64,000 bases of DNA, from contig NZ_WITC01000057.1 in the NCBI RefSeq assembly GCF_009601505.1, forward strand, positions 186,001 through 250,000, read 5' to 3'. The notes below the pieces were generated by a model, which ran no database searches, was not told the origin of the DNA, and saw only the letters and a list, made by a program, of their open reading frames with translations. This DNA is from Sinorhizobium terangae (GTDB taxonomy: Bacteria > Pseudomonadota > Alphaproteobacteria > Rhizobiales > Rhizobiaceae). The translations under genes were made by a program, and so were the position numbers. This document shows positions 187-15,849 of the stretch, piece by piece (position 1 is the first letter of the stretch; every line of letters starts with the position of its first letter).

Positions 187-645
187 ATGAATAAAAAGGA
201 TCCCAACCCGATAGATACCTTTGTCGGTTCTCGTGTCCGAATGCGCAGACTGATGGTCGGGCTGAGCCAGGAGAAGCTGGCCGACGGCTTGGGCATCACG
301 TTCCAGCAGGTACAGAAATACGAAAAGGGCACAAACCGCATCGGCGCGAGCCGCCTGCAGGCGATCGCCGATATCCTGGGCGTCCACCCGAGCTTCTTCT
401 TCCAACGCGAAGACGACAAGCCGTCGGGACGGGACAGCGCCGGCGACATGCATGAATCGAACGAGATTTCTTCCTTCGTGGCCTCGAAGGAAGGCATCGC
501 GCTCAACAGGGCCTTCCTGAAGATCGCCGATCCGGTGTTGCGCAAGAAGATCATCTCGCTCGTTGCCGCCATGGCCCAGGCACCGGATATGGAGTCGACG
601 AGCGCGATCTCCGGGGCGCGTCGCACCGAGCCTCTGCACGGCTAG
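187..645 (+). CDS. XRE-family transcriptional regulator (PraR/PhrR-like)
   Basis: A 152-residue DNA-binding protein. A Cro/C1-type helix-turn-helix occupies roughly residues 10-65, with the recognition-region signature LSQEKLADGLGITFQQVQKY followed by GTNRIGASRLQ, which is typical of the rhizobial PraR/PhrR group. The C-terminal part (about 70-152) is a low-complexity linker plus a short helical tail. The frame is open further upstream to position 46, but the ATG at 187 is chosen because a GAGGAG ribosome site sits at 171-176 and the homology starts there. It is monocistronic and followed by a palindromic repeat. The target genes are unknown; family members control biofilm, quorum sensing or acid response, so the specific role here is inference. 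Confidence 0.88.
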   Translation: MNKKDPNPIDTFVGSRVRMRRLMVGLSQEKLADGLGITFQQVQKYEKGTNRIGASRLQAIADILGVHPSFFFQREDDKPSGRDSAGDMHESNEISSFVASKEGIALNRAFLKIADPVLRKKIISLVAAMAQAPDMESTSAISGARRTEPLHG

Positions 646-651
646 AGACCA

Positions 652-748
652 CGGCGCTGCGCGTCTTATCAGACGCGCAAAGAGCGCGGTAGCGCTTTGA
701 ATTGCTGCATGTTTTCTTAAATCGGTCGCGATTTAAGAAAACATGCAG
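652..748 (+). repeat. Palindromic intergenic element, family A (complete copy)
   Basis: Two hairpins separated by a short conserved linker. The first is the GCGCGTCT/AGACGCGC stem at 659-678. The second is a perfect 20-bp stem (705-724 against 729-748) with a 4-nt loop, whose ends read CTGCAT and ATGCAG. Related copies occur at 42.2, 50.3, 53.3, 54.0, 56.1, 62.8 and 62.95 kb. It resembles the mosaic palindromic elements known from rhizobial intergenic regions; the family name is inferred. Confidence 0.85.
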
Positions 749-781: not shown

Positions 782-2650
782 ATGACCTATAGGTTGCAGA
801 CTCTGGGACGATTGCGCCTATTAAATGAAACGGGGCGCGAAGTCGCCTTTCCCGAGAAGGGTCTGCTCATCCTGTGTCTCGCGATTGCCAACGGCTGTCG
901 CGAACAATCCCGGGCGGAAATCGCCAGGCTGCTCTGGGACGGGGTCGAGCCCAGTCAGGCCTATGTCAACCTGCGCAAGACAATTTCCCGCATCACCGCG
1001 CAACAGATGGAGCTCGGTCGAACCTTCCTGACCTTTTCGCAGTCGTCGATCCTGCTCAATCCCGGAAGCTTGACGAGCGATCTCGATGCCGTGACCGACG
1101 ACGGCGACGACGCCGTCGCTCGCTTCTGCCGCATTGCCACTGTGCTGCGCGACGACTTCCTGAAGGACGCGAAATCGCACGGGAAGGCGCTTGATGCCTG
1201 GATCAACCGCCAGCGCGAGACGCATATGTCCCTGCTCAGGGAGAGCCTGCTTGCCGCGGCGCCCGCTGCCGCGGGCAAGCATCGCGACCTTCTCAAGTCG
1301 GCGGCAATGCGATTGCTCGAACGCAGCCCGTTGGACGAGGAAGTCCGCAAAATCTTGAAGGCTGCGCTGGAGTCGGAAGGACGGCACCATGATGCGCAGG
1401 TCATCTTCGAAAGCGTCAGCCGGTCGGTGCCGATCATCGGCAACCAACCGTCCGCGCCCGTCGAGATCCTCCCCCGGGACGACTCTCACCAGAGAAAGCC
1501 GCCGCGGCTCGTGCTGCTGCCGCCCAACTCCGAGCGTGGAGACAGCACCGCGGCGATCTTTGCAAGTTCGCTCATCGAGGACGTGACGATCGGCCTATGC
1601 GCCCTTCGCTCCGTCAGTGTCATCGCGCCCTATACCGCGGCGCAGATCGGCCTTCAGGCCGACAAGGCCAACACCTACGAACGGCATGCCATCAGCTATA
1701 TCCTCGACACACGATTGACCGACGAGGGTGACCGCCAGAGCCTCTTTGCCCAGCTGATCTTCTTCGCCAACGACGAGGTCATCTGGGCCGACCGGTTCAA
1801 TCTCATCGGCGATGGGCTGATGCAGTCGCGCAGGGGCATTGCGCATCGGATCGCTGCGGCTATTGCCAGTCAGATTGAACAGAACGAAGCCGTTCGCGGT
1901 TCCTATGAGGGCCACGCGGATTCCTATCGAAGCTATCTTCTCGGCCAGCGACACCTGAAGGACCTCAACCTTCCCGAGATCCGCCGCGCCCGCAAGAGCT
2001 TCAGGGAGGCACTGGGCCAACAGGCGGGTTTCGCACCCGCGATGGGCGGACTGGCCCGGACCTATTTCTTCGAATGGCTGCTGACGGCACGCAATGATCG
2101 TGAGCTGCTGGGGCTGGCCGAGCGACATGCCCGGGAGGCCGTGGTCGCCGACGAAACACTCGCCTCCGGCTATCTGGAACTCGGCGTCGTCAAGCTCTAC
2201 ATGCGCCAATTCGACGAGAGCGTTGAGTTCCTCGACAGGGCGGAAGCTTTGAGCCCGCACTACGCCAATGTCCTCGCCAGCTACGGCGACACCCTCGTGC
2301 AGGCGTCACGCCCAGCGGAGGGACTTCAAAAGATCAAGACGGCGATCGATCTCAATCCGATCGCACCCGACAACTATTTTTGGGCGGCGGCTGGTGCCAG
2401 CTATTCCCTTGGCCAATACGAAGAGGCCCTCGGCTACATTGATCGGATGCGGGACAGAGCGCCCGCCGACCGGCTATCGGCGGCAAGCTGGGGCATGCTC
2501 GGCGACCGCAGAAAGGCGCGCCAGTTCGTGCGCAAAACATTCGATGTCCACCCGGATTTCGATCTCGACAGATGGATGGCGATCGTGCCCTTTCGCGAGG
2601 AGTGGCAGAGGGAGCATTACCGCGAGGGCTTGAAGAAGGCAGGCTTTTGA
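782..2650 (+). CDS. SARP/BTAD-type transcriptional regulator with TPR repeats
   Basis: A 622-residue regulator. Residues 1 to about 95 form an OmpR/SARP-like winged helix (start MTYRLQTLGRLRLL, then the AEIARLLW and AYVNLRKTISRI segments). Residues about 100-210 look like the bacterial transcriptional activation region of SARP proteins. Residues about 235-365 resemble the TolB-like domain found in CadC/adenylate-cyclase-type regulators. The C-terminal half (about 370-600) is a TPR array (for example AEALSPHYANVLASYGDTL). The ATG at 782 follows a GAGGGGG ribosome site. It ends 38 bases before the small precursor-like gene, so it is the obvious candidate regulator of the YcaO/TfuA locus. No transmembrane helix was seen, so it is probably cytoplasmic. 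Confidence 0.85.
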   Translation: MTYRLQTLGRLRLLNETGREVAFPEKGLLILCLAIANGCREQSRAEIARLLWDGVEPSQAYVNLRKTISRITAQQMELGRTFLTFSQSSILLNPGSLTSDLDAVTDDGDDAVARFCRIATVLRDDFLKDAKSHGKALDAWINRQRETHMSLLRESLLAAAPAAAGKHRDLLKSAAMRLLERSPLDEEVRKILKAALESEGRHHDAQVIFESVSRSVPIIGNQPSAPVEILPRDDSHQRKPPRLVLLPPNSERGDSTAAIFASSLIEDVTIGLCALRSVSVIAPYTAAQIGLQADKANTYERHAISYILDTRLTDEGDRQSLFAQLIFFANDEVIWADRFNLIGDGLMQSRRGIAHRIAAAIASQIEQNEAVRGSYEGHADSYRSYLLGQRHLKDLNLPEIRRARKSFREALGQQAGFAPAMGGLARTYFFEWLLTARNDRELLGLAERHAREAVVADETLASGYLELGVVKLYMRQFDESVEFLDRAEALSPHYANVLASYGDTLVQASRPAEGLQKIKTAIDLNPIAPDNYFWAAAGASYSLGQYEEALGYIDRMRDRAPADRLSAASWGMLGDRRKARQFVRKTFDVHPDFDLDRWMAIVPFREEWQREHYREGLKKAGF

Positions 2651-2688
2651 GGCGCAATTCCGCGCGAGAGCAAGAGGGGATGAAATGA

Positions 2689-2907
2689 ATGGCTGAAGTT
2701 GTTGTTTTCGGCATTGCCGGAGAGGATCATTTGTGGCTTGCGGACCTCAAGGCGGGGACGGTCACCAGGATCGATCCGCCAAAGCAGGGTGCGCTGGCCG
2801 ACGCCGACACATTGCGCAAGTCCGGGTGCACGGTTGTCAAAACAGTCAATCTGGCAGCTGCGGCAAGTTCCGCCGACGCCGTCTTCGGTGGCTACATGGA
2901 CGGCTAG
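2689..2907 (+). CDS. 72-residue small protein, candidate RiPP precursor peptide
   Basis: A small protein starting MAEVVVFGIAGEDHLWLADL, with an AGAGGGGA ribosome site at 2673-2680 ideally spaced from the ATG at 2689. The N-terminal half is hydrophobic/acidic and could be a leader. The C-terminal part holds a single Cys, several Ser/Thr and ends GGYMDG. It lies 38 bases after the SARP/TPR regulator and 63 bases before a YcaO gene, with TfuA next, which is the position occupied by precursor genes in YcaO-TfuA loci. I do not recognise the family and see no similarity to TfxA. The precursor role is inferred only from size and context; it could instead be an accessory protein. Confidence 0.7.
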   Translation: MAEVVVFGIAGEDHLWLADLKAGTVTRIDPPKQGALADADTLRKSGCTVVKTVNLAAAASSADAVFGGYMDG

Positions 2908-2970
2908 CCGCCGGCCATGCGCGACGGGCGGTAGACCAAGGGGGTTCCGCCCGCACGTCTCTTCAAAACC

Positions 2971-4164
2971 ATGTCCAGCTCAATTCGCTATTCCGATCGG
3001 ATCTGCCCCGCCGAAGCGACCTTCGGCCGGATAGAGGCGCTTTTGCCGGAGTTCGGCATCACGCGGCTGGCGCGCCTGACCGGACTGGATTGCATCGGCA
3101 TACCCGTCTGGAATGCCGTGTCTCCGAACTCAAAGTCCCTGGTCATCAATCAGGGCAAGGGCATAACGGACATCGACGCAAAAGTCTCGGCGGCCATGGA
3201 GGCGCTCGAGCGCGCCGTCGCATGCGCGCCGCGCGTGCCGGCGAGAGTTGCGAGCCGCAGCGACCTGTTGGCCGAAGGCAATCAAGCCTTGTCTCTGCCG
3301 GGGTTAATCGCGAGCGGCCAGCCGGACCTTGCCGACAACGAGCCTATCCGCTGGGTTCTCGGCCGCAACCTCGACGGCGGAGTGTCGACATGGGTTCCGC
3401 TGGAGGCCGCCCTGCTCGACAGGACGGTGGAGAACTGCCGGTACTGGCAATCCTCCGATGGTCTCGCCTCCGGCAACAGTGAAACCGAAGCGGTGCTGCA
3501 TGGGCTCCTCGAACGGATCGAACGCGATGCGGAGGTGCTGTGGCGCATCACGCCAATAGCCTCGAGGCTTCGAAGCTGCGTTTTACCCCAGGCGCTCGGC
3601 GATGCGGTGCTTGCTGCGATGGCCGGGAAGATTGCCGCGGCCGACCTGGAGCTGCGCCTTTTCGACATCACCAGCGATGTCGGCATACCGTGCTTCACCG
3701 CCGTCGTAGCCGGGAAGGACATCCTCACGGCGAAGGCGCCGCTTTTCCACCATGTCACGGTTGGACACGGCGCACATCCGAATGCAGTGAGAGCGGCAAT
3801 CCGCGCCGTGACCGAGGCGGCCCAATCGAGACTCACCTATATCAGCGGCGCGCGCGACGACGTCTATCCGGAGACGTTCGTTCGCCCTCTGCCGCAGCAG
3901 ACGCAAAAACTGTTCGAGGCTCTGCCGCAAGAGCGGACACGCGTCCACGCCGGACAAGAGGGGGGACCGGATGCGCTCTTGTCTTTCGTCCTGCAACGGC
4001 TGCGCAATGCCGGCATCGGTCCGGTCGTCTCCGTGCCGTTGCTTGGCGATGACCTGCCCTTTGCGGTTGTCAAAGTGTTCGTTCCGGAGCTGGAAAACCC
4101 GGAGGGCGAGCGCAAGCGCCGCTTCGGCACACGGGCGCTCTCCTGGGCACTGGAGGCGGCGTGA
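2971..4164 (+). CDS. YcaO-domain protein (TfuA-associated cyclodehydratase/thioamidase family)
   Basis: A 397-residue stand-alone YcaO protein. The family's ATP/Mg-binding motifs are visible: SAAMEALER at 73-81 (SxxxExxER type) and ETEAVLHGLLERIERD at 171-186 (ExxxxxxxEhxExD type). YcaO enzymes phosphorylate a peptide backbone amide to form azolines, amidines or, with a TfuA partner, thioamides. The next gene is TfuA-like and overlaps by 4 bases, which points to backbone modification of a peptide and most likely thioamidation or azoline formation. The ATG at 2971 is the first possible start because an in-frame stop lies at 2932-2934; its ribosome site is weak. No RRE domain was seen inside the protein. 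Confidence 0.9.
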   Translation: MSSSIRYSDRICPAEATFGRIEALLPEFGITRLARLTGLDCIGIPVWNAVSPNSKSLVINQGKGITDIDAKVSAAMEALERAVACAPRVPARVASRSDLLAEGNQALSLPGLIASGQPDLADNEPIRWVLGRNLDGGVSTWVPLEAALLDRTVENCRYWQSSDGLASGNSETEAVLHGLLERIERDAEVLWRITPIASRLRSCVLPQALGDAVLAAMAGKIAAADLELRLFDITSDVGIPCFTAVVAGKDILTAKAPLFHHVTVGHGAHPNAVRAAIRAVTEAAQSRLTYISGARDDVYPETFVRPLPQQTQKLFEALPQERTRVHAGQEGGPDALLSFVLQRLRNAGIGPVVSVPLLGDDLPFAVVKVFVPELENPEGERKRRFGTRALSWALEAA

Positions 4165-4880
4165 AGATCGTCTTCGTCGGCCCGACCGTCCCCGATGCGC
4201 CCGAACGCGCCGGTGCGGCCTTCGCGATCCGGCCGCCGGCGATGCAGGGAGACATCTTGCGCGCCATACGCGCCGGCGCGACGATCATCGGCCTTGTCGA
4301 CGGCAATTTCGAACGTGTGGCTCCTGTCTGGCACAAGGAGATTCTGTTCGCCCTTTCAGAAGGCGTACAGGTCTTTGGTGCGGCGAGCATGGGCGCCTTG
4401 CGCGCCGCCGAATGCGCGGCCTTCGGAATGGTCGGGATCGGGGAAATATACCGCCAATATGCCGCGGGCGAGCTCGCGGACGACTCGGATGTGGCGCTGC
4501 TTCACGCTCCCGCCGAGCTCGGCTATGCGCCGCTCACGGTCCCGCTGGTCAATGTGCGCGCGACGCTTGCACGCCTCAGGCAGGGCGGCTCGATCACCGC
4601 AGCGGATGCAGCACGGATCGAGGCGGCAGCCGGGCAGATATTCTACAAGCGGCGCACATGGGCAGCGATCGTTGCCGACGCAGACCTTCCAGCGGATGGC
4701 GATCGCGTCGCCTTGGCGGCAAGGCTGCAACAGGAGATGGTTGACCAGAAGCGCGCCGATGCCCTCGCGCTTTTCGACGCGGTCCGGGCTCAGCCGAACG
4801 AACGGCGCGGCGAAAGACCCGGCTGGGCGTTCCATTCGACAACTATGTGGAAGGTTTTGCTTAATCAACCGGAGACGTAG
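4161..4880 (+). CDS. tfuA: TfuA-like protein, YcaO partner
   Basis: A 239-residue protein with the TfuA-domain signature VFGAASMGALRAAE at residues 71-84 and the N-terminal VFVGPT segment. TfuA was first described in the trifolitoxin locus of Rhizobium leguminosarum. In archaea and actinobacteria TfuA proteins work with YcaO enzymes in thioamide formation, probably by supplying sulfur. The start is GTG at 4161, overlapping the YcaO stop (GTGA), with GGAGG at 4152-4156, so translation is coupled. A sulfur-delivery role is by family analogy; the catalytic mechanism is not evident from the sequence. Confidence 0.88.
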   Translation: MKIVFVGPTVPDAPERAGAAFAIRPPAMQGDILRAIRAGATIIGLVDGNFERVAPVWHKEILFALSEGVQVFGAASMGALRAAECAAFGMVGIGEIYRQYAAGELADDSDVALLHAPAELGYAPLTVPLVNVRATLARLRQGGSITAADAARIEAAAGQIFYKRRTWAAIVADADLPADGDRVALAARLQQEMVDQKRADALALFDAVRAQPNERRGERPGWAFHSTTMWKVLLNQPET

Positions 4881-4906
4881 GACGGGTCGCTTTTCCCATT
4901 CAGCGT

Positions 4907-4951
4907 GTGTCACGCTCGTGTCACGCCCACGGCCCGGAAGTCACGCTATAT
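4907..4951 (+). promoter_or_regulatory. Candidate activator-dependent promoter with GTCACGC direct repeats
   Basis: GTGTCACGC occurs at 4907-4915 and 4918-4926 (11-base period), and GTCACGC again at 4940-4946 (20 bases further). The last copy runs straight into CTATAT at 4946-4951, the rhizobial -10 form, with no recognisable -35. Heptamer direct repeats with about 11-base spacing next to a -10 are the classical SARP binding arrangement. The link to the regulator at 782 is inference. Confidence 0.45.
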
Positions 4952-5001
4952 TGCTGACGAAAGCGGGTCGCAGTGACCCCCGAGTGGCACTGGGGAAAAT
5001 C

Positions 5002-5238
5002 ATGAAGCAATCCATCAAGTTACCTACCGACGTGGAAGACAGGGAGAAGGAACTTCTGGCCCTTGCCCGCCTCGTCAGCTACGCGCGAGACTCCGCCAAG
5101 ACATTGAACGTCGAAGGCGTGCAGTATTGCCTTGAACTGGCTTTGGCCTCCCTGCTCCAGGAAGTCGAATACATGACCGACAAGAACGTTCTTCCGACAG
5201 TCGACCTGATGGCACTGGGCAGCCTGGGCCGCTGCTGA
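5002..5238 (+). CDS. Small protein of unknown function (78 aa)
   Basis: A 78-residue protein starting MKQSIKLPTDVEDREKEL. It is mostly helical and charged, has no signal peptide and has single Cys residues near the middle and at the C-terminus. The ATG at 5002 follows a GGGGA ribosome site at 4992-4996. I do not recognise the family. It lies 121 bases after TfuA, in the same direction, behind its own apparent promoter with direct repeats. It could be part of the YcaO/TfuA regulon, for example immunity or accessory, or an unrelated gene. Coding status rests on codon bias and the ribosome site. Confidence 0.6.
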   Translation: MKQSIKLPTDVEDREKELLALARLVSYARDSAKTLNVEGVQYCLELALASLLQEVEYMTDKNVLPTVDLMALGSLGRC

Positions 5239-5382: not shown

Positions 5383-6339
5383 TCATGATCGGGCGATGGG
5401 CACCAAGGTCCTCTTTTCGATCTTGCCCGCCACCGAAAAGATCAGGAATTCGGTCGCCTGGCCGATCCTCTCACCGTCCATCAGCCTGACGACATCGTCC
5501 ACGCCGCCGAGAGGCTTGCCGTCGATCGACAGGATATAGTCGCCTTCCCGAAGACCACCGCGCTCGGCCGGGCCGCCGGGTTCCAGCCGTCTCAGACGGA
5601 CCGACGTCGTCCGGTCGGTTCCGGCTGCCAGCGCGATCCTGCGCGGCAGTTCGATCGTGTCGCCGGCAATGCCGATATACGCCCGCCTGACATGGCCGTA
5701 TCGGAGGATCTCGGAAATCACGAAATTTGCCGTGTTCGAGGCGACTGCAAAGGCGATGCTCTGCGCGCCCTGGATCACGGCCGTGTTGACCCCGATCACT
5801 TCGCCGCCCGACGAGACCAGCGGCCCTCCCGAATTTCCTGGATTGAGGGCCGCATCCGTCTGGATGACGTCGTCCATCAGACGCCCGTTCGCCGCCCGCA
5901 TCGTGCGTCCGAGTGCCGAGACGATGCCCGCCGTGACGGTCCATTCGAAACCCAGCGGATTACCGATGGCGATTGCGATGTGCCCTCGCCGCAGCCGCTT
6001 TGAATCCCCCAGCTTCGCCCAGGCGCCGACGCCCGAGTTCGCCCGTATGAGCGCGATGTCGGTGTCGACGTCGCGACCAAGCACACGGCCTTCCGTCACG
6101 AAGCCGTCCGGCGTCGTGACACGAACGGCCTTGGAATCCCCGACGACGTGATTGTTCGTCACGATCAGCCCGTCGGAAGAAACCGCAAAGCCCGAGCCAT
6201 GACCGGCCCTGCCGCCAACCCGCTCGATGCGGCTGACCGCCGGGCCGACCACATCGACCGCGCCGGCAATTGCATGCGAATAGGCATCCGTCAGCGCGCC
6301 GTCGTCGACGGGCGCTATTTCCTTGTCGATGAAACCCAT
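5383..6339 (-). CDS. HtrA/DegP-like trypsin-fold serine protease with PDZ domain
   Basis: A 318-residue protein. The trypsin-like catalytic triad is visible: His in TNNHVVG, Asp in DTDIALI and Ser in PGNSGGPLV. A PDZ domain covers about residues 225-318 (GLREGDYILSIDGKPLGG). There is no signal peptide or transmembrane segment, unlike periplasmic DegP, so the enzyme is probably cytoplasmic. The start at 6339 (MGFIDKE) is preferred over the longer frame because GAGGA lies just upstream. It is divergent from nasT across about 225 bases. Its substrate is unknown; it is a protein quality-control or regulatory protease by family. Confidence 0.88.
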   Translation of the reverse strand: MGFIDKEIAPVDDGALTDAYSHAIAGAVDVVGPAVSRIERVGGRAGHGSGFAVSSDGLIVTNNHVVGDSKAVRVTTPDGFVTEGRVLGRDVDTDIALIRANSGVGAWAKLGDSKRLRRGHIAIAIGNPLGFEWTVTAGIVSALGRTMRAANGRLMDDVIQTDAALNPGNSGGPLVSSGGEVIGVNTAVIQGAQSIAFAVASNTANFVISEILRYGHVRRAYIGIAGDTIELPRRIALAAGTDRTTSVRLRRLEPGGPAERGGLREGDYILSIDGKPLGGVDDVVRLMDGERIGQATEFLIFSVAGKIEKRTLVPIARS

Positions 6340-6564
6340 GATCTGATCCTCAAACGGCGGCGACCATCGCCGCCGAACCAACGGACCGAAACAATTTGGT
6401 ACTGTTGTTCAAAATAGATGGAGAGACCTGCAGATCGGTTCAAGCCTTGGCTCGATCTGGGCATTTCGCCCACCACAATGCCTTAAATTCATGCATTTCA
6501 TGACGTCGCAAAATTTTTAGGCAAACATATTGCGAAATTTGCTGCGCTGCATCATGATCGCCGC

Positions 6565-7158
6565 ATGACCCGCCGCGACCTGACCATTCTTGTGATTGAC
6601 GAGAACGCCATCCGCGCCTCGATCATCGAGGAAGGCTTGCGCGATGCGGGCCACAACCGCGTGAGCATCGTGCACGATGTCCATGGCGTCGGGCGGGTGA
6701 TCGAAAGGTTGCAACCGGACGTGATCGTCATTGATCTCGAAAATCCCAACCGCGATCTGCTGGAGAGCATGTTCCAGCTCTCCCGCTCGGTAAAGCGCCC
6801 GATCGCCATGTTCGTTGACCGATCCGACAGCAGCATGATCGAAGCGGCGATCGACGCCGGCGTCTCGGCCTATGTCGTCGACGGACTGCGGCAGGAGCGG
6901 GTGAAGTCGATCCTCGACATGGCGATCAGCCGTTTCAACGCCTTTTCACGCATGGAGCGCGAGTTGGCGGAAGCACGCAGCGAGCTTGCAGACCGCAAGG
7001 TGATCGACCGGGCCAAGGGCATCCTGATGAAGTCGCGCGGCATCGGCGAAGAAGAGGCCTACAAGCTCCTGCGCACGACCGCGATGAACCAGAACCGCAA
7101 GATAGCCGAAATCGCACAGAGCCTGGTGCTCGCGGCAGGATTGCTGGAGGACCTGTAA
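6565..7158 (+). CDS. nasT: NasT, ANTAR-domain response-regulator-like antiterminator
   Basis: A 197-residue protein with a receiver-like N-terminal domain (about 1-120; LTILVIDENAIRASIIEEGL) and a C-terminal ANTAR RNA-binding domain (about 130-190; DRAKGILMKSRGIGEEEAYK). NasT binds two-hairpin leader RNAs and prevents transcription termination in nitrate assimilation operons; NasS sequesters it when nitrate is absent. The stop codon abuts the nasS start (TAAATG), so the pair is co-translated. A target leader is present 1.4 kb downstream in front of nrtA. The weak ribosome site at 6565 is the only plausible start. Confidence 0.95.
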   Translation: MTRRDLTILVIDENAIRASIIEEGLRDAGHNRVSIVHDVHGVGRVIERLQPDVIVIDLENPNRDLLESMFQLSRSVKRPIAMFVDRSDSSMIEAAIDAGVSAYVVDGLRQERVKSILDMAISRFNAFSRMERELAEARSELADRKVIDRAKGILMKSRGIGEEEAYKLLRTTAMNQNRKIAEIAQSLVLAAGLLEDL

Positions 7159-8379
7159 ATGGCTGCCACCGCCGACATCACCCTCGGCTTCATGCCGCTC
7201 TTCGACAGCGCCGTGCTCATTGCCGCCAGCGAAAAAGGCTTCGTCGCCGACGAGGGCCTCACGGTGCAGCTCGTCCGGGAAACCTCCTGGGCCAATATCC
7301 GCGATCGGATCGCCGTCGGCCATTTCCAGGCGGCCCACATGCTGGCGCCAATGCCGATTGCAGCCAATCTCGGCCTCACGCCCCTGTCGCTGGACCTCGT
7401 GGCGCCCTTTGCGCTCGGACTTGGCGGCAATGCAGTGACGGTGTCGCGCGGTCTCTGGGAAGGCATGGTCGCTGAGGGCGCCAGGCCCGGCACCGACCCG
7501 GGCACCAACGGCGCAGCCTTGAGGCGCGTCGTCGAACGCCGCCGTGAAGCGGGCGAGCCGCCGCTGCGTTTTGCCGTCGTCCACCCCTTCTCCGGCCATA
7601 ACTACGAGTTGCGCTATTGGCTCGCGGGCTGCGGCATCGATCCGGAAAGCCACGTCGAAATTGTCGTCGTTCCCCCGCCGCTGATGGCCGATGCACTGTC
7701 GACTGGCGCGATCGACGGGTTCTGCGTCGGCGAACCGTGGAACAGCGTCGCGGTCGCACGCCATGCCGGACGCATTGTCACCACCAAGGCGTCGATCTGG
7801 CGACTGAGCCCGGAAAAGGTGCTCGGTGTGTCAGCCCGGTTCGCCTCCGAGAACCGCCCCGCGCTGGACGCGCTGCTGCGCGCGCTCTACCGAAGCTCGA
7901 TGTGGTGCGGCGAAAGCGCAAATCACGAAGAACTCGCGGCGCTGATGAGCAGCCCTGCCTATCTCGACCTTCCGCGCAAGATGCTGATGCCGATCCTCAC
8001 GGGCCGACTGACGCTCGGTGACGGCGCGACCGGCGACATTCCCGAATTCTTTGTCCCGCATGCCAAGGGAGCGACCTTTCCCTGGCAGAGCCACGCCCTC
8101 TGGTTCTACAGCCAAATGGTGCGCTGGGGACACACGCCGCATTCGGCAGCACTTGCCGAGCGTGCGCGTGACACCTATCGGCCGGACATCTACAGACAGG
8201 CGCTGAAGCCGATCGCTGCGCCGATGCCCGGCGCCAACATGAAGGTCGAGGGCGCCCTGACCGTGGCGGCACCGGTCGGCGCTTCGGAAAAAGGGCTTAT
8301 TCTCGGTCCCGACGGCTTTTTCGACGGCCGGATCTTCGACCCGGACCGCCTCGAGGGCTACCTGGCGAGCCAGCGCTGA
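7159..8379 (+). CDS. nasS: NasS, cytoplasmic nitrate/nitrite sensor (NrtA/CmpA family)
   Basis: A 406-residue protein of the nitrate-binding NrtA family, for example the [15 protein letters not shown] segment shared with the NrtA encoded downstream. It has no signal peptide, which separates the cytoplasmic sensor NasS from transport-binding proteins. NasS holds NasT in an inactive complex and releases it when nitrate or nitrite binds, allowing antitermination of the nas operon. It follows nasT directly. A sigma-54 promoter and leader for the structural genes start right after it. Confidence 0.93.
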   Translation: MAATADITLGFMPLFDSAVLIAASEKGFVADEGLTVQLVRETSWANIRDRIAVGHFQAAHMLAPMPIAANLGLTPLSLDLVAPFALGLGGNAVTVSRGLWEGMVAEGARPGTDPGTNGAALRRVVERRREAGEPPLRFAVVHPFSGHNYELRYWLAGCGIDPESHVEIVVVPPPLMADALSTGAIDGFCVGEPWNSVAVARHAGRIVTTKASIWRLSPEKVLGVSARFASENRPALDALLRALYRSSMWCGESANHEELAALMSSPAYLDLPRKMLMPILTGRLTLGDGATGDIPEFFVPHAKGATFPWQSHALWFYSQMVRWGHTPHSAALAERARDTYRPDIYRQALKPIAAPMPGANMKVEGALTVAAPVGASEKGLILGPDGFFDGRIFDPDRLEGYLASQR

Positions 8380-8394
8380 CGACCTGCTCGATTA

Positions 8395-8456
8395 TTGTGC
8401 ACTGCGCAAAATTTATTCAAGAGACAGCTTAATCGCCTCTCACCAGCGCACTGCGC
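8395..8456. promoter_or_regulatory. Candidate NtrC enhancer sites
   Basis: The nonamer GCACTGCGC occurs twice, at 8399-8407 and 8448-8456, each inside an imperfect palindrome (TTGTGCACTGCGCAA at 8395-8409; AGCGCACTGCGCT at 8445-8457). They sit about 55 and 105 bases upstream of the sigma-54 promoter, a normal enhancer distance. Assignment to NtrC is inference from position and GCAC half-sites. Confidence 0.4.
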
Positions 8457-8505
8457 TTTGGGCCCAATCACCGAAAAATCATGAGAATCCGTCCGTCCAC
8501 GAAAC

Positions 8506-8521
8506 TGGCACGGTTCCTGCA
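8506..8521 (+). promoter_or_regulatory. Sigma-54 (RpoN) promoter of the nrt-nir-nas operon
   Basis: TGGCACGGTTCCTGCA matches the -24/-12 consensus TGGCACGNNNNTTGCW at all but one constrained position. The invariant GG and GC are correctly spaced. The predicted start at about 8532 leaves a 187-base leader before nrtA. Confidence 0.8.
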
Positions 8522-8564
8522 TTGTGGAGAGCGTAGGGCCCTTGGGGTCCGCTTGAAATAATCG

Positions 8565-8598
8565 GCGTCCAATGAAGGGCGCAGAAGGCAAGGCTGCC
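8565..8598 (+). promoter_or_regulatory. ANTAR two-hairpin leader RNA (NasT target)
   Basis: Hairpin P1 has stem GCGTCC/GGGCGC (8565-8570 with 8577-8582) and hexaloop AATGAA. After a 4-nt linker, hairpin P2 has a 3-bp stem GGC/GCC (8587-8589 with 8596-8598) and hexaloop AAGGCT. Both loops have A at position 1 and G at position 4, the known ANTAR recognition bases. P2 overlaps the 5' arm of the terminator, so binding would block termination. Confidence 0.75.
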
Positions 8599-8660
8599 AA
8601 ACCGGGAACGCGCTCTGAACGAGGCAGAGCGTCGGACTGCGGTTTGGCAGCCTTTTTATT
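8590..8660 (+). terminator. Intrinsic attenuator terminator in the nrtA leader
   Basis: A 15-bp perfect stem (8590-8604 with 8640-8654; arm AAGGCTGCCAAACCG) is followed by a T-rich run TTTTTATTT. The loop contains a second small stem (CGCTCTG 8611-8617 with 8625-8631). It lies between the sigma-54 promoter and nrtA and is mutually exclusive with ANTAR hairpin P2. Confidence 0.85.
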
Positions 8661-8718
8661 TGCCCCGAACGTCGCAACCGCAGGCGAGCCTCCCATCGCC
8701 GGCACACAGGAGAAAAAC

Positions 8719-10116
8719 ATGACGAGGCCTTCCACCGGAAAATTCGCGAAGTGTTCGCTCGCCGCCTGGGCGGCCACACTCTATGTCGGCGCCGGCTCTT
8801 TCGCGTCTGCCGAGATGCTCGTGCCCGAGAAGGACGAACTCAAGCTCGGTTTCATAAAGCTCACCGACATGGCGCCTCTCGCGATCGCCTATGAGAAGGG
8901 CTTCTTCGAGGAAGAGGGGCTGTTCGTCACGCTCGAACCGCAGGCCAACTGGAAGGTGCTGCTCGACCGCGTGATAACAGGCGAACTGGACGGCGCGCAT
9001 ATGCTCGCCGGTCAGCCGCTCGCCGCCACCATCGGCTTCGGCACCAAGGCGCATATCGTGACGCCCTTCTCCATGGACCTCAACGGCAACGGCATCACCG
9101 TTTCGAATGACGTCTGGGCGATGATGAAGGAGAATATTCCGCTCGGCGCGGACGGCAAGCCGGCCCACCCCATCAAGGCCGACGCGCTGAAGCCCGTCGT
9201 CGATGCATTCAAGGCCGAGGGCAAGCCATTCAATCTCGGCATGGTGTTTCCGGTTTCCACTCACAACTACGAGCTTCGTTACTGGCTGGCCGCCGGCGGC
9301 ATTCATCCGGGGTTCTATTCGCCGGAAAACGTCACGGGACAGATCAGGGCGGACGCGCTTCTTTCCGTGACGCCGCCGCCACAGATGCCCGCCACGCTCG
9401 AAGCCGGCACGATTGTCGGCTACAGCGTCGGCGAGCCCTGGAACCAGGCCGCCGTCTTCAAGGGCATCGGCGTTCCGGTGGTGACCGACTACGAAATCTG
9501 GAAGAACAATCCGGAGAAGGTCTTCGGGCTGACCAAGGAATTCACCGAGAAGTATCCGAACACGACCCTTGCGCTGACAAAGGCGCTCATCCGCGCCGCC
9601 AAATGGCTGGACGAAAACAACAACGCCAACAGGGCCGAGGCAGTCGAAATCCTGTCGCGCAGCGAATATGTCGGCGCCGACGCGGACGTGATCGCCAACT
9701 CGATGACCGGCACCTTCGAATACGAGCGGGGCGACAAGCGCGACGTTCCCGACTTCAACGTCTTCTTCCGCCACAACGCGACCTATCCGTTCTACTCCGA
9801 TGCCATCTGGTACCTGACGCAGATGCGCCGCTGGGGTCAGATCGCCGAGCACAAGGACGACGCCTGGTACGCGGAAACGGCGAAGTCCGTCTATCTGCCC
9901 GACATCTACATGAAGGCGGCAGGGATGCTGGTCGAAGAGGGCAAGGCGGACAAGGGCGACTTCCCCTTCGGCACCGACGGCTACAAGGCGCCGACCTCCG
10001 ACTTCATCGACGGCGTCACCTTCGATGCCAAGGCGCCGAACGCCTACATCGACTCCCTCAAGATCGGGCTGAAGAACGAACAGACGATATCCGGGTCGGA
10101 TGTCGTTGGCGGCTGA
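8719..10116 (+). CDS. nrtA: NrtA, nitrate ABC transporter substrate-binding protein
   Basis: A 465-residue nitrate-binding protein. The N-terminus (residues 1 to about 31, ending SFASAEM) is an export signal, and the mature part shares the family segments [20 protein letters not shown] and [11 protein letters not shown]. It captures nitrate in the periplasm for the NrtB/NrtC permease. The start is the ATG at 8719 with AGGAG at 8708-8712; the frame extends upstream through the attenuator but that part is leader RNA. It is the first structural gene of the nitrate operon, controlled by the RpoN promoter and NasT-dependent antitermination. Confidence 0.94.
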
Positions 10117-10186
10117 ACACTGGACTGGCGGCGCGAAACCCGAGGCCGCCTGTTCCCGACCAAATTTCAACAGATGAGACAAATCG

Positions 10187-11260
10187 ATGACTCAAGCGAT
10201 CACCGTGGCTGACCCGAAACTCGCACGACGAGAGCGTCTGTTTCAGCGGATCAATAAAGCCGCCGGCTGGCTCAACGCGCTTGGCCTCGGCTGGGTGACC
10301 CCGATCCTGCGCATGGCAGCCGGCGACAATGTCGCCGAGCAGATGTCCGAAATTCGCAAGGTGCTGCTGGTGCCGCTCGCGGGCATCCTGTGCTTCCTCG
10401 CGCTTTGGGGCTTTCTTGCGCCGAAGGTTCAAACCTCGCTTGGCGCCATTCCCGGGCCTGCGGCCGTCTTCGGCCAGGCCAACGTGCTTCTGCAGGATCA
10501 TTTCGTGGAACGGAGCAAGGCAACGGCTTTCTATGCCCGGCAGGACGAACGCAACGCCAAGCTCGTTGCCGATGGCAAGGCCGATCAGGTGAAGCATCGC
10601 GTGTTCACCGGCAAGCCGACCTATATCGACCAGATCACGACCTCGCTGATGACGGTCGGGCTCGGCTTCGTGATCGCGACGCTGGTCGCCGTGCCGCTCG
10701 GGATAGCCTCCGGTCTCTCCAAGACGATCAACGGTGCCATCAACCCGCTGATCCAGATCTTCAAGCCCGTCTCGCCGCTGGCATGGCTGCCGATCGTAAC
10801 AATGGTCGTCTCGGCGCTTTATGTCGATCCGTCGAGCCTGCTGCCGAAGTCACTGGTGATCTCGGCCGTTACCGTGACCCTCTGTTCGCTGTGGCCGACG
10901 CTGATCAATACGGCGCTCGGCGTGGCTTCGATCGACAAGGACCTGGTGAACGTCGGCAAGGTGCTTCAGCTTTCGACCGCGACGACGATCCGCAAGCTGG
11001 TTTTGCCTTCCGCCCTTCCGTTGATCTTCACCGGGCTGAGACTCTCGCTCGGTGTGGGCTGGATGGTGCTGATCGCGGCCGAAATGCTCGCCCAGAATCC
11101 CGGCCTCGGAAAGTTCGTCTGGGACGAATTCCAGAACGGCTCTTCCGACTCGCTCGCCCGCATCATGGTTGCGGTGCTGACGATCGGCATCATCGGCTTC
11201 ATTCTGGACCGCATCATGTATGCCCTCCAGTCCGCCTTCACCTTCTCGTCGAACCGATAG
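10187..11260 (+). CDS. nrtB: NrtB, nitrate ABC transporter permease
   Basis: A 357-residue integral membrane protein of the BPD_transp_1 permease family. The first membrane segment is at about 59-77 ([16 protein letters not shown]). The remaining helices lie in the C-terminal two-thirds with the permease loop around [17 protein letters not shown]. There is a long periplasmic/cytoplasmic insert between about 80 and 145. It forms the channel for nitrate imported by NrtA, powered by the tandem ATPase encoded next. It sits 70 bases after nrtA and 10 bases before nrtC, so it is in the same operon. Confidence 0.93.
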
Positions 11261-11270
11261 GACGCGCCCC

Positions 11271-13049
11271 ATGACCGTTCTAGGCGGGACCATTCTTCAA
11301 CTGAGCGATGTCTCGAAGTCCTTCGGCGAGGGAAAATCGCGCAATGACGTCCTTTCAGGCGTCAACCTCAAGGTCGAGGAAGGCGAGTTCATTGCCATCG
11401 TCGGTTTTTCCGGCTCAGGCAAATCGACGCTGATTTCCCTCCTCGCCGGCCTGACGATGCCGGATCGCGGTGCGGTGCTCTTCCGCGACAAGGAAGTGTC
11501 GGGTCCGGGGCCGGAGCGCGGCGTCGTCTTCCAATCCTATTCGCTGATGCCCTGGCTGTCGGTCCGCGCCAATGTCGCCCTTGCCGTCGATGCGGTGCAT
11601 TCCGCCAAGAGCAAAGCCGAAAGGGCGAGCCTCGTTCAGTACTATATCGAGATGGTCGGTCTCGCCCACGCGACAGAGCGCCGGCCTGCGGAGCTCTCGG
11701 GCGGCATGCGCCAGCGCGTGGCCGTGGCAAGAGCGCTCGCGATGCAGCCCGACGTGCTCCTGCTCGACGAGCCGCTCTCGGCACTCGACGCGCTCACCCG
11801 CTCGAAGCTTCAGGACGAATTCGCCGAGATCTCGTCGAAGGAAAAGAAGACCATCATCCTCATCACCAACGACGTCGATGAGGCGATCCTGCTTGCCGAC
11901 AGGATTGTCCCCTTGACGCCCGGTCCGAATGCCTCGCTCGGTCCCAGCTTCGAGGTGAACCTGCCGCGACCGCGCGACCGTGCGGAAATGAACTCGAACG
12001 CCGAGTTCATCCGTCTTCGCGGCGCCGTCACCGAATATCTGATGGATCTGGGCGCCGGACGAACCACCGCAGAAAGCGGCGCCGTCGCCTTGCCCAACGT
12101 CGTGCCGATCACCCAGAAACTTGCCGGCACCAAGCTGCCCGACGCCTATGCGCGAAAGGCGCGCTCCGCGATCGAAAAGAGCTACGTCGAGTTTTTCGAG
12201 GTCCGAAAGGTCTATCCGACGCCGAAAGGTCCGTTGACAGTGGTCGATGGCTTCAACCTCAAGATGAATAGAGGCGAGTTCATCTCGATCATCGGCCATT
12301 CGGGATGCGGCAAGTCGACCGTTCTGTCGATGATGGCCGGCCTCAATCCGATCTCGTCCGGCGGCATCATCCTCGATGGACGGGAAATTTCCGGCGCCGG
12401 TCCGGATCGGGCGGTGGTTTTCCAGGCTCCATCGCTGCTTCCCTGGCTGACCGCCCGCGAAAACGTCGCGCTCGGCGTCGACCGGGTCTATCCGGACGCG
12501 ACGCCCGCCGAGCGCCGCGACGTGGTCGAATATTACCTGCAGCGCGTCGGCCTCGGCGATGCGATGCACCGGCTTGCGGCGGACCTCTCGAACGGCATGA
12601 AGCAGCGCGTCGGCATCGCCCGGGCGTTCGCGCTGTCCCCTAAGCTGCTGCTGCTCGATGAGCCCTTCGGCATGCTCGACAGCCTCACCCGCTGGGAGCT
12701 GCAGGAAGTGCTGATGGACGTGTGGAAGCGGACGCAGGTGACGGCGATCTGCGTGACGCATGACGTCGACGAGGCGATCCTGCTCGCCGATCGGGTGGTG
12801 ATGATGTCGAACGGCCCCAATGCACGGATCGGCAACATCATGGAGGTGAACCTGCCGCGGCCTCGCTCGCGCAAGGAGCTCCTGTCGCACCCCGACTACT
12901 ACGCCTACCGCGAGGAGCTCCTGGACTTCCTGGAGGCCTATGAAGGCGGGGCCAGCCCCGCTCCCGAACATCTCGAAGCGATCCGGGCGAAGCGCGCCGC
13001 CCGAACGATGTTGTCCGCCCAGACCCTCAAGAAACAAGCCGCGGAGTAA
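11271..13049 (+). CDS. nrtC: NrtC/NrtD-type fused nitrate transporter ATPase
   Basis: A 592-residue protein with two complete ABC ATPase domains, as if NrtC and NrtD were fused. Domain 1 has Walker [10 protein letters not shown], signature LSGGMRQR and Walker [12 protein letters not shown]. Domain 2 (from about residue 305) has [17 protein letters not shown] and [11 protein letters not shown]. Neither half carries the NrtA-like regulatory domain known from cyanobacterial NrtC. The ATG at 11271 is preferred over an upstream in-frame start that would overlap nrtB. Its role is ATP hydrolysis for nitrate import. Confidence 0.92.
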
Positions 13050-13053
13050 TGGA

Positions 13054-15504
13054 ATGACCGAGAAACTGGTGATCGTTGGCAACGGCATGGCGCCGGGCCG
13101 CATGCTGGAAGAACTCTTCGAGAAGGCGCCAGGGCGCTATGAAGTAACGATCTTCAACGCCGAGCCGCGTGTCAATTACGACCGCATCATGCTCTCGCCG
13201 GTGCTGTCCGGCGAGAAGGATTACGAAGAGATCATCATCCATGGCGACGGTTGGTACATCAAGCACGGCATCACGCTGTACAAAGGCCACAAGATCATCG
13301 CCATCGACCGGAATGCCAAGACGGTCACCTCCGACCATGGTGTGACGGAAAGCTACGACAAGCTGGTGATCGCCACCGGTTCCGTGCCCTTCATCATTCC
13401 GGTGCCCGGCAAGGATTTGCGCGGCGTCATCACCTATCGCGATCTCGACGACGTGCAGGCGATGCTGCTCGCGGCGCAGTCGCGCGAAACGGCCGTCGTC
13501 ATCGGCGGCGGTCTCCTTGGCCTCGAAGCGGCGGCAGGCCTGAAAGCCCGCGGCATGGATGTCACCGTGCTGCACGTCATGCCGACGCTGATGGAGCGCC
13601 AGCTCGACCCGGCCGCCGGCTACCTCCTGCAGAAGGCGGTCGAGGAACGCGGCATCAAGGTCATCACCAAGGCAAATACCAAACGGATCGTCGGCGAGGA
13701 GAAGGTCGAGGGCATCGAGCTCGACGACGGCCGCATCATCCCGGCAACACTGGTGGTGATGGCGGTCGGCATCAGGCCGAATGCCAGCCTCGCGAAGGAA
13801 GCCGGGCTTGCCGTCAACCGTGGCATCGTCGTCGACGCCGGCATGCAAACCTCCGACGGAGACATCATGGCACTCGGCGAATGCGCCGAAGTCGACGGCA
13901 TGGTCTACGGCCTGGTGGCGCCGCTCTATGAGATGGCGCGGGTTGCCGCACGCCACCTGGCCGGTGATCGCAGCGCCGCCTTTGTCCATTCCGATACGCC
14001 CACAAAGCTGAAGGTGACCGGCATCAATCTCTATTCGGTCGGCGATTTCGCCGATGGCGACGGCCGCGAGGAAATCGTGCTGCGCGACGCCACCGCCGGA
14101 ATCTACAAGCGGCTGGTCTTGAAGGACAACCGCATCATCGGCACGGTGCTCTATGGGGACACCGGGGACGGCGCCTGGTTCAACGACCTGTTGAAGCGCG
14201 GCACCGACATTACCGAAATGCGCGACACGTTGATCTTCGGCCAGGCCTATCAGGGAGGGTCTCCGCTGGACCCTATGGCGGCCGTTGCAGCCTTGCCGGA
14301 TGATGCGGAAATCTGCGGCTGCAACGGCGTCTGCAAGGGCAAGATCGTCTCGACGATCACCGGAAAGGGCCTGACGTCGCTCGACGACGTGCGTGCCCAC
14401 ACCAAGGCTTCGGCCTCCTGTGGTTCATGCACCGGCCTCGTCGAGCAACTGATGTCGCTCACCCTCGGCGACGCCTACAATCCGGCCGCCGTGCAGCCGA
14501 TGTGCGGCTGCACGGACCTCGGCCATGACGACGTCCGCCGCCTCATCAAGGCGAAGAAACTGAAGACCATTCCCGCCGTCATGCAGGAGCTCGAATGGAA
14601 GACCTCCTGCGGCTGCGCGAAATGCCGGCCGGCGCTCAATTACTACCTCGTCTGTGACTGGCCGGACGAATATGCCGACGACTACCAGTCGCGCTTCATC
14701 AACGAACGCGTCCACGCCAACATCCAGAAGGATGGCACCTATTCGGTGGTGCCGCGCATGTGGGGCGGCGTGACCAATTCCAAGGAACTGCGCGCCATCG
14801 CCGATGTCGTCGACAAGTTCGATGTCCCGCTCGTCAAGGTCACCGGCGGCCAGCGCATCGACCTGCTCGGCATTCAGAAGGAAGACCTGCCGGCCGTCTG
14901 GGCCGATCTCGGCAAGGCCGGCTTCGTCTCGGGCCAGGCCTATGCCAAGGGATTGCGGACGGTGAAGACCTGCGTCGGCTCTGATTGGTGCCGCTTCGGC
15001 ACGCAGGATTCGACGGGGCTCGGCATCCGCATCGAGAAGTTCATGTGGGGCTCGTGGACTCCCGCCAAGGTGAAGATGGCCGTCTCCGGCTGTCCAAGGA
15101 ATTGCGCCGAGGCCACCTGCAAGGACGTCGGCGTCATTTGCGTCGACTCCGGCTTCGAGATCCATTTCGCCGGCGCCGCCGGGCTCGACATCAAGGGCAC
15201 CGAGGTCCTGGGGCTCGTCAAGACCGAGGACGAGGCGCTGGAGCACATCGTTGCCCTGACGCAGATGTATCGCGAGCAGGCCCGCTATCTCGAACGCATC
15301 TACAAATGGGCAAAACGCATCGGCCTTGACGAGATCCGCCGCCAAATCATGAACGATGCGGAGAAGCGCAAGGCCTATTTCGACCGCTTCGTCTTCAGCC
15401 AGAAATTCGCCCAGGTCGACCCCTGGTCGGAGCGCGTCTCCGGCAAGGACAAGCATGAGTTCCGGCCGATGGCGACGGTCGGTTTCAATCAGGCAGCGGA
15501 GTGA
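13054..15504 (+). CDS. nirB: NirB, assimilatory nitrite reductase [NAD(P)H] large subunit
   Basis: An 816-residue enzyme that reduces nitrite to ammonium. The domains in order are an FAD/NAD(P)-binding pyridine nucleotide reductase (IVGNGMAPG at about 6; VVIGGGLLGLEAA at about 148), a BFD-like [2Fe-2S] region (CGCNGVCKGKI ... SCGSCTG), and the siroheme/4Fe-4S sulfite/nitrite reductase domains with the cluster motif CVGSDWCRFG ... SGCPRNCAEATC. The start at 13054 lies 4 bases after the nrtC stop. It works with NirD, encoded 4 bases downstream, and needs siroheme, for which a cysG-like gene ends the operon. Confidence 0.96.
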   Translation: MTEKLVIVGNGMAPGRMLEELFEKAPGRYEVTIFNAEPRVNYDRIMLSPVLSGEKDYEEIIIHGDGWYIKHGITLYKGHKIIAIDRNAKTVTSDHGVTESYDKLVIATGSVPFIIPVPGKDLRGVITYRDLDDVQAMLLAAQSRETAVVIGGGLLGLEAAAGLKARGMDVTVLHVMPTLMERQLDPAAGYLLQKAVEERGIKVITKANTKRIVGEEKVEGIELDDGRIIPATLVVMAVGIRPNASLAKEAGLAVNRGIVVDAGMQTSDGDIMALGECAEVDGMVYGLVAPLYEMARVAARHLAGDRSAAFVHSDTPTKLKVTGINLYSVGDFADGDGREEIVLRDATAGIYKRLVLKDNRIIGTVLYGDTGDGAWFNDLLKRGTDITEMRDTLIFGQAYQGGSPLDPMAAVAALPDDAEICGCNGVCKGKIVSTITGKGLTSLDDVRAHTKASASCGSCTGLVEQLMSLTLGDAYNPAAVQPMCGCTDLGHDDVRRLIKAKKLKTIPAVMQELEWKTSCGCAKCRPALNYYLVCDWPDEYADDYQSRFINERVHANIQKDGTYSVVPRMWGGVTNSKELRAIADVVDKFDVPLVKVTGGQRIDLLGIQKEDLPAVWADLGKAGFVSGQAYAKGLRTVKTCVGSDWCRFGTQDSTGLGIRIEKFMWGSWTPAKVKMAVSGCPRNCAEATCKDVGVICVDSGFEIHFAGAAGLDIKGTEVLGLVKTEDEALEHIVALTQMYREQARYLERIYKWAKRIGLDEIRRQIMNDAEKRKAYFDRFVFSQKFAQVDPWSERVSGKDKHEFRPMATVGFNQAAE

Positions 15505-15508
15505 GGTG

Positions 15509-15847
15509 ATGGAAATGAACTGGATCGCAATCGGCAATGTTTCCGATATCCCTCTGCGCGGCGCGCGTTGCGTGAGAACGCCGCAGGGCAAGATCGCCGT
15601 CTTCCGGACCGCGGAGAACGAGGTCTTCGCGATCGAAGACCACTGCCCGCACAAGGGCGGGCCGCTCAGCCAAGGGATCGTCCACGGCACCGCCGTGACT
15701 TGCCCGCTGCACAACTGGGTGATCTCGCTCGAAACCGGCAAGGCGCTCGGCGCCGACGAGGGCGAGGTCCGCACGGTCCCGGTGAAAAACGACAACGGCG
15801 CGCTTTTCATCGCGCTCGAGAGCCTGGCGCTGGCAGCGGCGGAGTAG
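15509..15847 (+). CDS. nirD: NirD, nitrite reductase small subunit
   Basis: A 112-residue Rieske-fold protein. Both Rieske cluster half-motifs are present: CPHKGGPL at about 47 and CPLHNW at about 67, giving the C-x-H and C-x-x-H ligands. Many NirD proteins lack these ligands, so this copy probably binds a [2Fe-2S] cluster. It starts at 15509 with GAGGTG just upstream and lies between nirB and nasA with 4- and 2-base gaps, indicating tight co-expression. Confidence 0.94.
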   Translation: MEMNWIAIGNVSDIPLRGARCVRTPQGKIAVFRTAENEVFAIEDHCPHKGGPLSQGIVHGTAVTCPLHNWVISLETGKALGADEGEVRTVPVKNDNGALFIALESLALAAAE

Positions 15848-15849
15848 GC

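Follow-up and report, generated by a model that had tools for sequence, protein, structure and literature searches.

A probable thioamidated-peptide locus of Sinorhizobium terangae in which YcaO and TfuA accompany a small precursor-like protein

The locus described here lies near the start of a 64,000-nucleotide stretch of Sinorhizobium terangae DNA (assembly GCF_009601505.1, contig NZ_WITC01000057.1, positions 186,001 to 250,000), which is called the window below. The source genome comprises 7.08 Mb in 139 contigs, and the nearest named relatives at the locus are Ensifer/Sinorhizobium strains. Six genes, all on the plus strand, follow one another in the order HTH154-SARP-SP-YcaO-TfuA-down78 and together make up the full locus. 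Its central element is SP, a small protein of 72 amino acids (aa) encoded at 2689..2907, which is very probably, to judge from the sequences of its family, the precursor of a ribosomally synthesized and post-translationally modified peptide (RiPP). A ribosome-binding site (AGAGGGGA, 2673..2680, plus strand) is recognizable in the sequence ahead of SP, and 63 bases beyond SP lies the gene for YcaO (2971..4164, 397 aa; PF02624, E 1.1e-59), a putative ATP-dependent backbone-modifying enzyme. This gene overlaps by 4 bases that of TfuA (4161..4880, GTG start; PF07812, E 1.4e-45), the presumed sulfur-delivery partner. On the upstream side, 38 bases separate SP from the gene for a SARP/TPR regulator of 622 aa (782..2650), which has matches to several TPR models and a sub-threshold match to BTAD, the SARP domain. 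A perfect inverted repeat with 20-base arms and a 4-base loop (705..748), for which an Rfam search gave no match, separates SARP from HTH154, a Cro/C1-type helix-turn-helix (HTH) regulator (187..645, ATG at 187; PF01381, Pfam E 2.1e-14 on 181-645). The conserved last gene, down78 (5002..5238), encodes a 78-aa protein to which the Pfam scan assigned no family. Coordinates, spacings and domain calls for the four genes from SARP to TfuA had been given by an earlier reading made from the sequence alone (the sequence-only reading), and the open reading frame (ORF) positions and Pfam agree with them. The end of the locus at 5238 holds as a coordinate, but that reading's text left out the 78-aa gene (5002-5238) and the HTH gene (187-645).

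SP is a real gene. Its dN/dS is about 0.12 across 55 pairs of 11 sequences (that of the window and 10 close relatives), and a whole-genome search found it in 33/33 genomes of the window's genus. One search using the 72-aa sequence alone had found a single relative; whole-genome and profile searches recovered a family, and the view of SP as an orphan small protein is thus abandoned. Scanning named genomes with an SP profile confirmed 104 loci, of which the best 80, many of them close relatives, were kept for all locus counts below. They belong to Sinorhizobium/Ensifer, Rhizobium, Shinella, Pararhizobium, Agrobacterium, Neorhizobium and Pseudorhizobium, and well-studied carriers include Sinorhizobium meliloti 4H41, S. 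medicae USDA1037 and Rhizobium johnstonii 3841. SP occurred in 39 of 247 genomes of a sample of the GTDB family, in 29/397 of an order sample and in 1/385 of a class sample, the one being the window's own genome; in the samples searched, the family was found only in Hyphomicrobiales. A profile search of a set of 5.8 billion proteins, which scored the 7997 candidates with the most words in common, gave 67 SP clusters among these best 7997; those named by their source are called hypothetical or uncharacterized, and for none of the 67 is a Pfam domain listed.

Alignments of SP show a conserved N-terminal half (GE.GLW.ADL..GTV) and more variation in the C-terminus. The AlphaFold2 model (mean pLDDT 83.1) predicts strands at residues 4-8, 15-19 and 24-28 and a helix at 35-44, with a less certain C-terminal end. 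From the conserved columns and this model the leader part would span approximately residues 1-50 (2689..2838), and residues 53-72 (VNLAAAASSADAVFGGYMDG, 2845..2904) form the apparent core region, matched by eye to a repeat unit of 22-24 aa in other members. Tandem repeats occur in 12 of 49 non-redundant SPs (10/47 without two members that were included manually), as judged by a score reached by at most 1 of 200 shuffles, with L118 borderline in that it equals the highest shuffle. The repeated stretch begins at residue 44 or later in 11/12 of these proteins. Units of 7 aa (e.g. SGGYMDA, SGGFLEV, ANGLHEV) are found in L118, L089, L094 and L174, and a 9-aa unit is found in L188. Those of L096, L302b and L303b are 13-14 aa long; units of this size read GLFERSExxTxAAG (14 aa, present seven times in L096) and RSDPSDRAFSFDG (13 aa). 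L067 and L205 have units of 23-24 aa, and DVAVAFEPKEAAFSGHFYKTP-like units span 22-24 aa. In L103 and L104 the units are 28 aa long, with SHYYYPS or SHHYFPNR inside, and number five copies in L103 and eight in L104. One tandem core reads SGGYMDA-SGGYMDA-DGGYMDK, and the SP of the window ends in FGGYMDG (residues 66-72, 2884..2904). This stretch corresponds to the unit of 7 aa that is repeated in Shinella precursors and, from comparison with single-core members, is taken as the window's minimal core. A conserved N-terminus joined to a tandemly copied C-terminus is, as far as sequence tells, the leader/core anatomy also seen in thiovarsolin. The conserved C-terminal core that the sequence-only reading had proposed to look for thus exists, and is in part tandemly duplicated.

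The pattern xG[HYFLIVRK]x[DEV], which itself fixes the Gly and restricts positions +1 and +3, fits 83 of 84 SP sequences, the exception being a doubtful minus-strand ORF (L176). The acid of the core is D or E in 82/83, and the residue before the Gly is S in 57, G in 17, A in 7 and T in 2. Distant members (L098, L100, L101, L103 and L104) depart from the core pattern; L103 and L104 retain the start of the leader but have a wholly changed core. SP was also compared with the winged-helix fold of RiPP recognition elements: 5why and 5v1u came top in Foldseek at weak E values (0.39 and 0.5) and were not among the 7 rows of a second aligner.

At some loci two precursor genes are consecutive (L115, L131; L302-L304). 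A second precursor subfamily, with repeats of 22-24 aa (AVAFEPKEAAFSGHxYKTP), was seen at L067:8020-8394, L068:8317-8616 and L205 and in P0002, P0012, P0017, P0023 and P0035. In L067 and L068 the gene of this second type lies just upstream of YcaO-TfuA and is divergent from the SARP-SP pair, so that each locus has two precursor genes.

The genes that surround SP are conserved with it. Although the 80 loci were found through SP alone, a SARP gene lies directly upstream in every one of them. YcaO is downstream of SP in 61/80, TfuA is downstream in 51/80 and divergent in 10 more, and both enzymes are downstream in 51/80; conservation of the 72-aa gene beside YcaO-TfuA, which the sequence-only reading had put forward as a check, is therefore found. 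HTH154 is upstream in at least 55/80 loci, a down78 homolog is downstream in at least 47/80, and all six genes are present in at least 37/80; the HTH154 and down78 counts are lower bounds because genes were called at a phmmer E of 1e-5 (1e-3 for the SP profile). L113, whose down78 match is 9 kb away, was left out of the down78 and complete-locus counts. Across the 247 family genomes, the 39 with SP are the same 39 that have the YcaO clade of the window, and 38/41 SP copies lie upstream of a clade YcaO, within 720 bases.

The remaining loci show the same partners at a distance. No YcaO is present within 10 kb in 19/80 loci, and all 19/19 genomes concerned have a YcaO elsewhere, at 43-66% identity. 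Judged from 1500 bases of flank, the best remote copy belongs to a second SARP-SP-YcaO-TfuA locus in 6 of these genomes, and in 12 it stands beside HTH154 without SP. In the last (L204) SP is absent and the HTH and SARP matches are weaker. In one of the twelve HTH154-YcaO genomes (G447), a further YcaO accompanies TfuA and a precursor of the repeat type (L205). TfuA is apart from YcaO in the S. meliloti-like lineage, and a TfuA of at least 224 bits is present in 33/33 genomes of the genus. The neighbourhoods of 30 of the 33 best TfuA places were read (G003 and G024, among the other three, were seen separately): 17 of the 30 are HTH154-TfuA without YcaO, 12 are SP-YcaO-TfuA and 1 is TfuA alone. 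That genes split on the chromosome are nevertheless kept together in the genome is strong evidence for one pathway. The sequence-only reading had set its claim against SP homologs that occur independently of YcaO-TfuA; such independence is seen locus by locus, but not genome by genome, either in the 19 genomes above or in the family sample.

YcaO and TfuA together are the pair known for thioamide formation, and the two enzymes of the window are related to those of known thioamidation. The nearest solved relatives are MJ1094 (6pe3, E 1.7e-29) for YcaO and 6xp8 (E 4.4e-27) for TfuA, each aligned over much of its length. Models for McrA thioamidation are the best NCBIfam match of YcaO (TIGR03266, 190.5 bits against a cut-off of 365) and the only NCBIfam match of TfuA (NF033432, 177 against 235.2), both being under the equivalog cut-offs. 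TfuA-linked YcaOs have preferences for Met, His and Ala in three ATP motifs, according to the parts of a 2021 survey used here (PMC8120280); candidates for these motifs in the window YcaO, by our own placing, are SAAMEALER, LHGLLERIERD and TEAAQSR. According to the discussion section of a 2026 paper, sulfide delivery to such YcaOs tends to involve a thiocarboxylated carrier and a TfuA hydrolase (PMC13063428).

We propose, with a probability of about 0.8, that the locus directs the biosynthesis of a thioamidated RiPP, whose family was seen in the samples searched in Hyphomicrobiales only, and that SP is the precursor. Family, gene order, co-occurrence and the leader/core anatomy with tandem cores are evident from the sequences. 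In the pathway envisaged, the folded part of SP would be the leader and the tail the substrate; the predicted beta-beta-beta-alpha unit of the leader is presumably recognized by the enzymes. YcaO, with ATP, would activate a backbone amide in the C-terminal core (FGGYMDG in the window), and TfuA would deliver sulfide, exchanging O for S with a gain of 16 Da per core. The modified residue is most likely the core Gly or its neighbour. Cellular peptidases may then free a short thioamidated peptide, while the SARP/TPR and HTH proteins would regulate the gene set and down78 would act as an accessory protein. The central claim of the sequence-only reading, that the 72-aa protein is the precursor in a YcaO-TfuA locus, gains support from the conserved linkage and the repeated core. 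That reading had also considered an intracellular modified protein as the product; the short repeated cores make a peptide more likely.

Several points weigh against this proposal. The cut-off that defines the YcaO clade, 240 bits, was chosen after a gap had been seen between the matches of 39 genomes, which score 244 bits or higher, and all others, none of which exceeds 228. Three genomes at 220-228 bits (G925, G992, G1047) were thereby assigned to another clade; on inspection of G925 and G992, SP was not seen and another small ORF was present instead. Scoring in the family sample was limited per genome to 20 SP and 7 YcaO candidates, which leaves absences less than certain, and kinship among the genomes means that the 39/39 match counts for less than its formal odds suggest. 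Of the 61 loci that have YcaO, 10 lack a TfuA next to it, and neither enzyme gene is within 10 kb in 9/80 SP loci. No exporter, immunity gene or protease conserved across genera was found beside the six genes. Finally, position -7 relative to the core Gly is a Ser or Thr in 73/83 sequences, and an azoline could form there.

The regulator calls for separate consideration. BTAD in the window SARP reaches E 0.0017 and 19.1 bits, under the cut-off of 22.1, and among 29 SARP members Trans_reg_C was detected in 2 and BTAD in 2. The AlphaFold2 model (mean pLDDT 84.5) has an N-terminal winged-helix-like part, a helical BTAD-like part, a low-confidence disordered linker (201-237), an alpha/beta part (242-340) and a helical superhelix (369-620). 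TPR superhelices lead its Foldseek matches, and the CadC sensor domain appears from rank 24 on (E 2.7e-6). Of the 38 clade SARPs found in the genus, 36 lie within 150 bases of an intact SP, 1 is accompanied by a frameshifted SP and 1 is cut by a contig end. The sequence-only reading had found a SARP outside actinobacteria unusual; within the SP family such a partner is the rule. As to its further suggestion, SARP control of the locus, what the loci show is linkage. Some extra SARP-SP pairs are decaying: in L344 (G026:C21) SP is split over two frames, and in L071 (G029:C21) SARP is in pieces.

SARP and SP are more tightly linked than SP and YcaO (80/80 as against 61/80), which suggests that the CadC-like/TPR half of SARP may sense the peptide. 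SP might on this basis be a ligand or small partner of SARP, with its modification by YcaO-TfuA switching the regulator in a sensing circuit and the core bound by the half of SARP predicted to resemble TPR superhelices and the CadC sensor domain. The near-constant presence of an intact SP beside the genus SARPs and the lack of an exporter found conserved across genera agree with such a circuit, which we regard as possible though distinctly less likely than a biosynthetic role. In many RiPP loci a regulator is linked yet does not sense the peptide, up to eight tandem cores (L104) suit the making of many peptides, and the evidence for sensing consists of linkage and predicted structure. Sensing by SARP is attractive, but the data are accounted for equally well if SARP simply regulates the locus. 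A tighter version, on which we would place somewhat less weight still, takes the thioamidated core as the cognate ligand of SARP/TPR, so that each SARP-precursor pair would form its own signal/receptor channel, with specificity set by the core x-G-[H/aromatic/aliphatic]-x-[D/E]. It might, as a similarly speculative extension, cover the extra SARP-SP pairs without a YcaO of their own, which a remote YcaO-TfuA would serve in trans. TPR peptide receptors are known from Firmicutes; if true, the channel idea would provide their modified-peptide, Gram-negative counterpart, and the tight SARP-precursor pairing renders peptide sensing testable.

The chemistry might also differ from that proposed, with YcaO closing an azoline or some other ring within the SP core instead of forming a thioamide. 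The Ser/Thr at position -7 and the Ser directly before the core Gly in 57/83 would allow this. However, the residue before the Gly is G or A in 24/83, and the minimal units of the window (FGGYMDG) and of L174 (ANGLHEV) hold no Ser, Thr or Cys. With the minimal core free of any obligatory residue of this kind, thioamidation of the backbone is a better fit than an azoline, and the Ser/Thr/Cys-containing C-terminus loses the value that the sequence-only reading had given it as an argument for a precursor. An E1/ThiF-like partner was not found in the 24 ORFs around the window locus that were scanned with Pfam, the conserved partner being TfuA. We thus infer a thioamide rather than other YcaO chemistry and consider the ring-forming alternative improbable. 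A housekeeping protein as the target of YcaO-TfuA, by analogy with the thioamidation of McrA or uL16, with SP as adaptor or chaperone, is very unlikely: the predicted fold of the N-terminal part of SP and the sub-cut-off McrA-model matches would suit it, but repeated, diversified C-termini have no evident purpose in an adaptor, and so patchy a locus (39/247 family genomes) is unlike a housekeeping function.

The closest precedent for the proposed RiPP locus is the thiovarsolin cluster of Streptomyces varsoviensis, with the precursor VarA, the YcaO VarY and the TfuA VarT (PMC6511847). In the sections of that paper drawn on here, thiovarsolin precursors range from non-repeating to five repeats, and the cluster has no protease, endogenous peptidases being proposed instead (PMC6511847). 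The two systems share, on the strength of those sections, the TfuA-YcaO pair, precursors with none to many core repeats, the lack of a cluster-specific protease and, for SP as a prediction, short thioamidated peptides as the outcome. They differ, by the same account, in the core, a repeated APR/GPR in thiovarsolin and xG[H/aromatic/aliphatic]x[D/E] in SP, and in the company they keep: heme-oxygenase-like, ATP-grasp, amidinotransferase and major facilitator superfamily (MFS) genes there, and SARP, HTH and down78, in Hyphomicrobiales, here. The SP locus would thus work like the thiovarsolin system and, with the APR/GPR core absent from its sequences, is not a member of it.

The methanogen system for McrA glycine thioamidation (PMC5589413, as far as drawn on here) is similar in that YcaO and TfuA align, the ycaO and tfuA genes overlap and Gly is a plausible target; it differs in that the target there is a large enzyme, and the window YcaO and TfuA are under the equivalog cut-offs. 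Phazolicin of Rhizobium is also a YcaO-dependent rhizobial RiPP, but is described in the part of PMC6783444 consulted as a linear azol(in)e-containing antibiotic. The 2021 survey catalogued >500 TfuA clusters of Rhizobium, and the SP type of locus is probably among them. As given in the portions of the survey used, all TfuA-YcaO products then known came from actinobacteria, and CCRG-2-, Nif11-, berninamycin- and albusnodin-like precursors are named (PMC8120280); the words SARP and tandem do not occur in those portions. No description of the SP precursor family, its core repeats or its link to SARP was found in the literature searched, the survey supplements excepted. Our verdict, reached from sequence comparison, is that the SP locus represents a new precursor type among TfuA-YcaO RiPPs. 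It offers a defined precursor family with assignable leader and core, outside actinobacteria and in genetically tractable symbionts, and since these symbionts include well-studied strains, the product can be sought directly. Multi-core relatives, in Shinella and others, predict the number of modifications, which can be checked by mass spectrometry.

Other YcaO-TfuA sets were encountered. The sister YcaO clade at 220-228 bits (L307, L308) has SARP-YcaO-TfuA, no SP and a different small ORF that ends in TNATSNIVHAVRFR in both loci and is possibly a second precursor family. Given this arrangement, the SARP linkage may predate the SP-type precursor. Two further YcaO-TfuA pairs in the window's own genome belong to other clades and show no match to SARP or SP (L075, G000:C98:161000-175000; L076, G000:C107:36000-51000); in L075 a 99-aa ORF without a Pfam match lies just before YcaO.

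Around the locus, a gene for an Lrp/AsnC-type regulator and one for a LysE-type translocator lie directly upstream of the HTH gene (L347:6755-8010, ending at about window position 9). An HtrA-like trypsin/PDZ protease gene (5383-6381, minus strand) is convergent to the locus and occurs at 6/80 loci, all of the window's own lineage. Beyond it, 6565-18507 contains genes for an ANTAR response regulator, two NMT1-like binding proteins, a permease, an ABC ATPase, a nitrite-reductase-like protein and a molybdopterin oxidoreductase, a set that looks like nitrate assimilation and unrelated to the RiPP locus.

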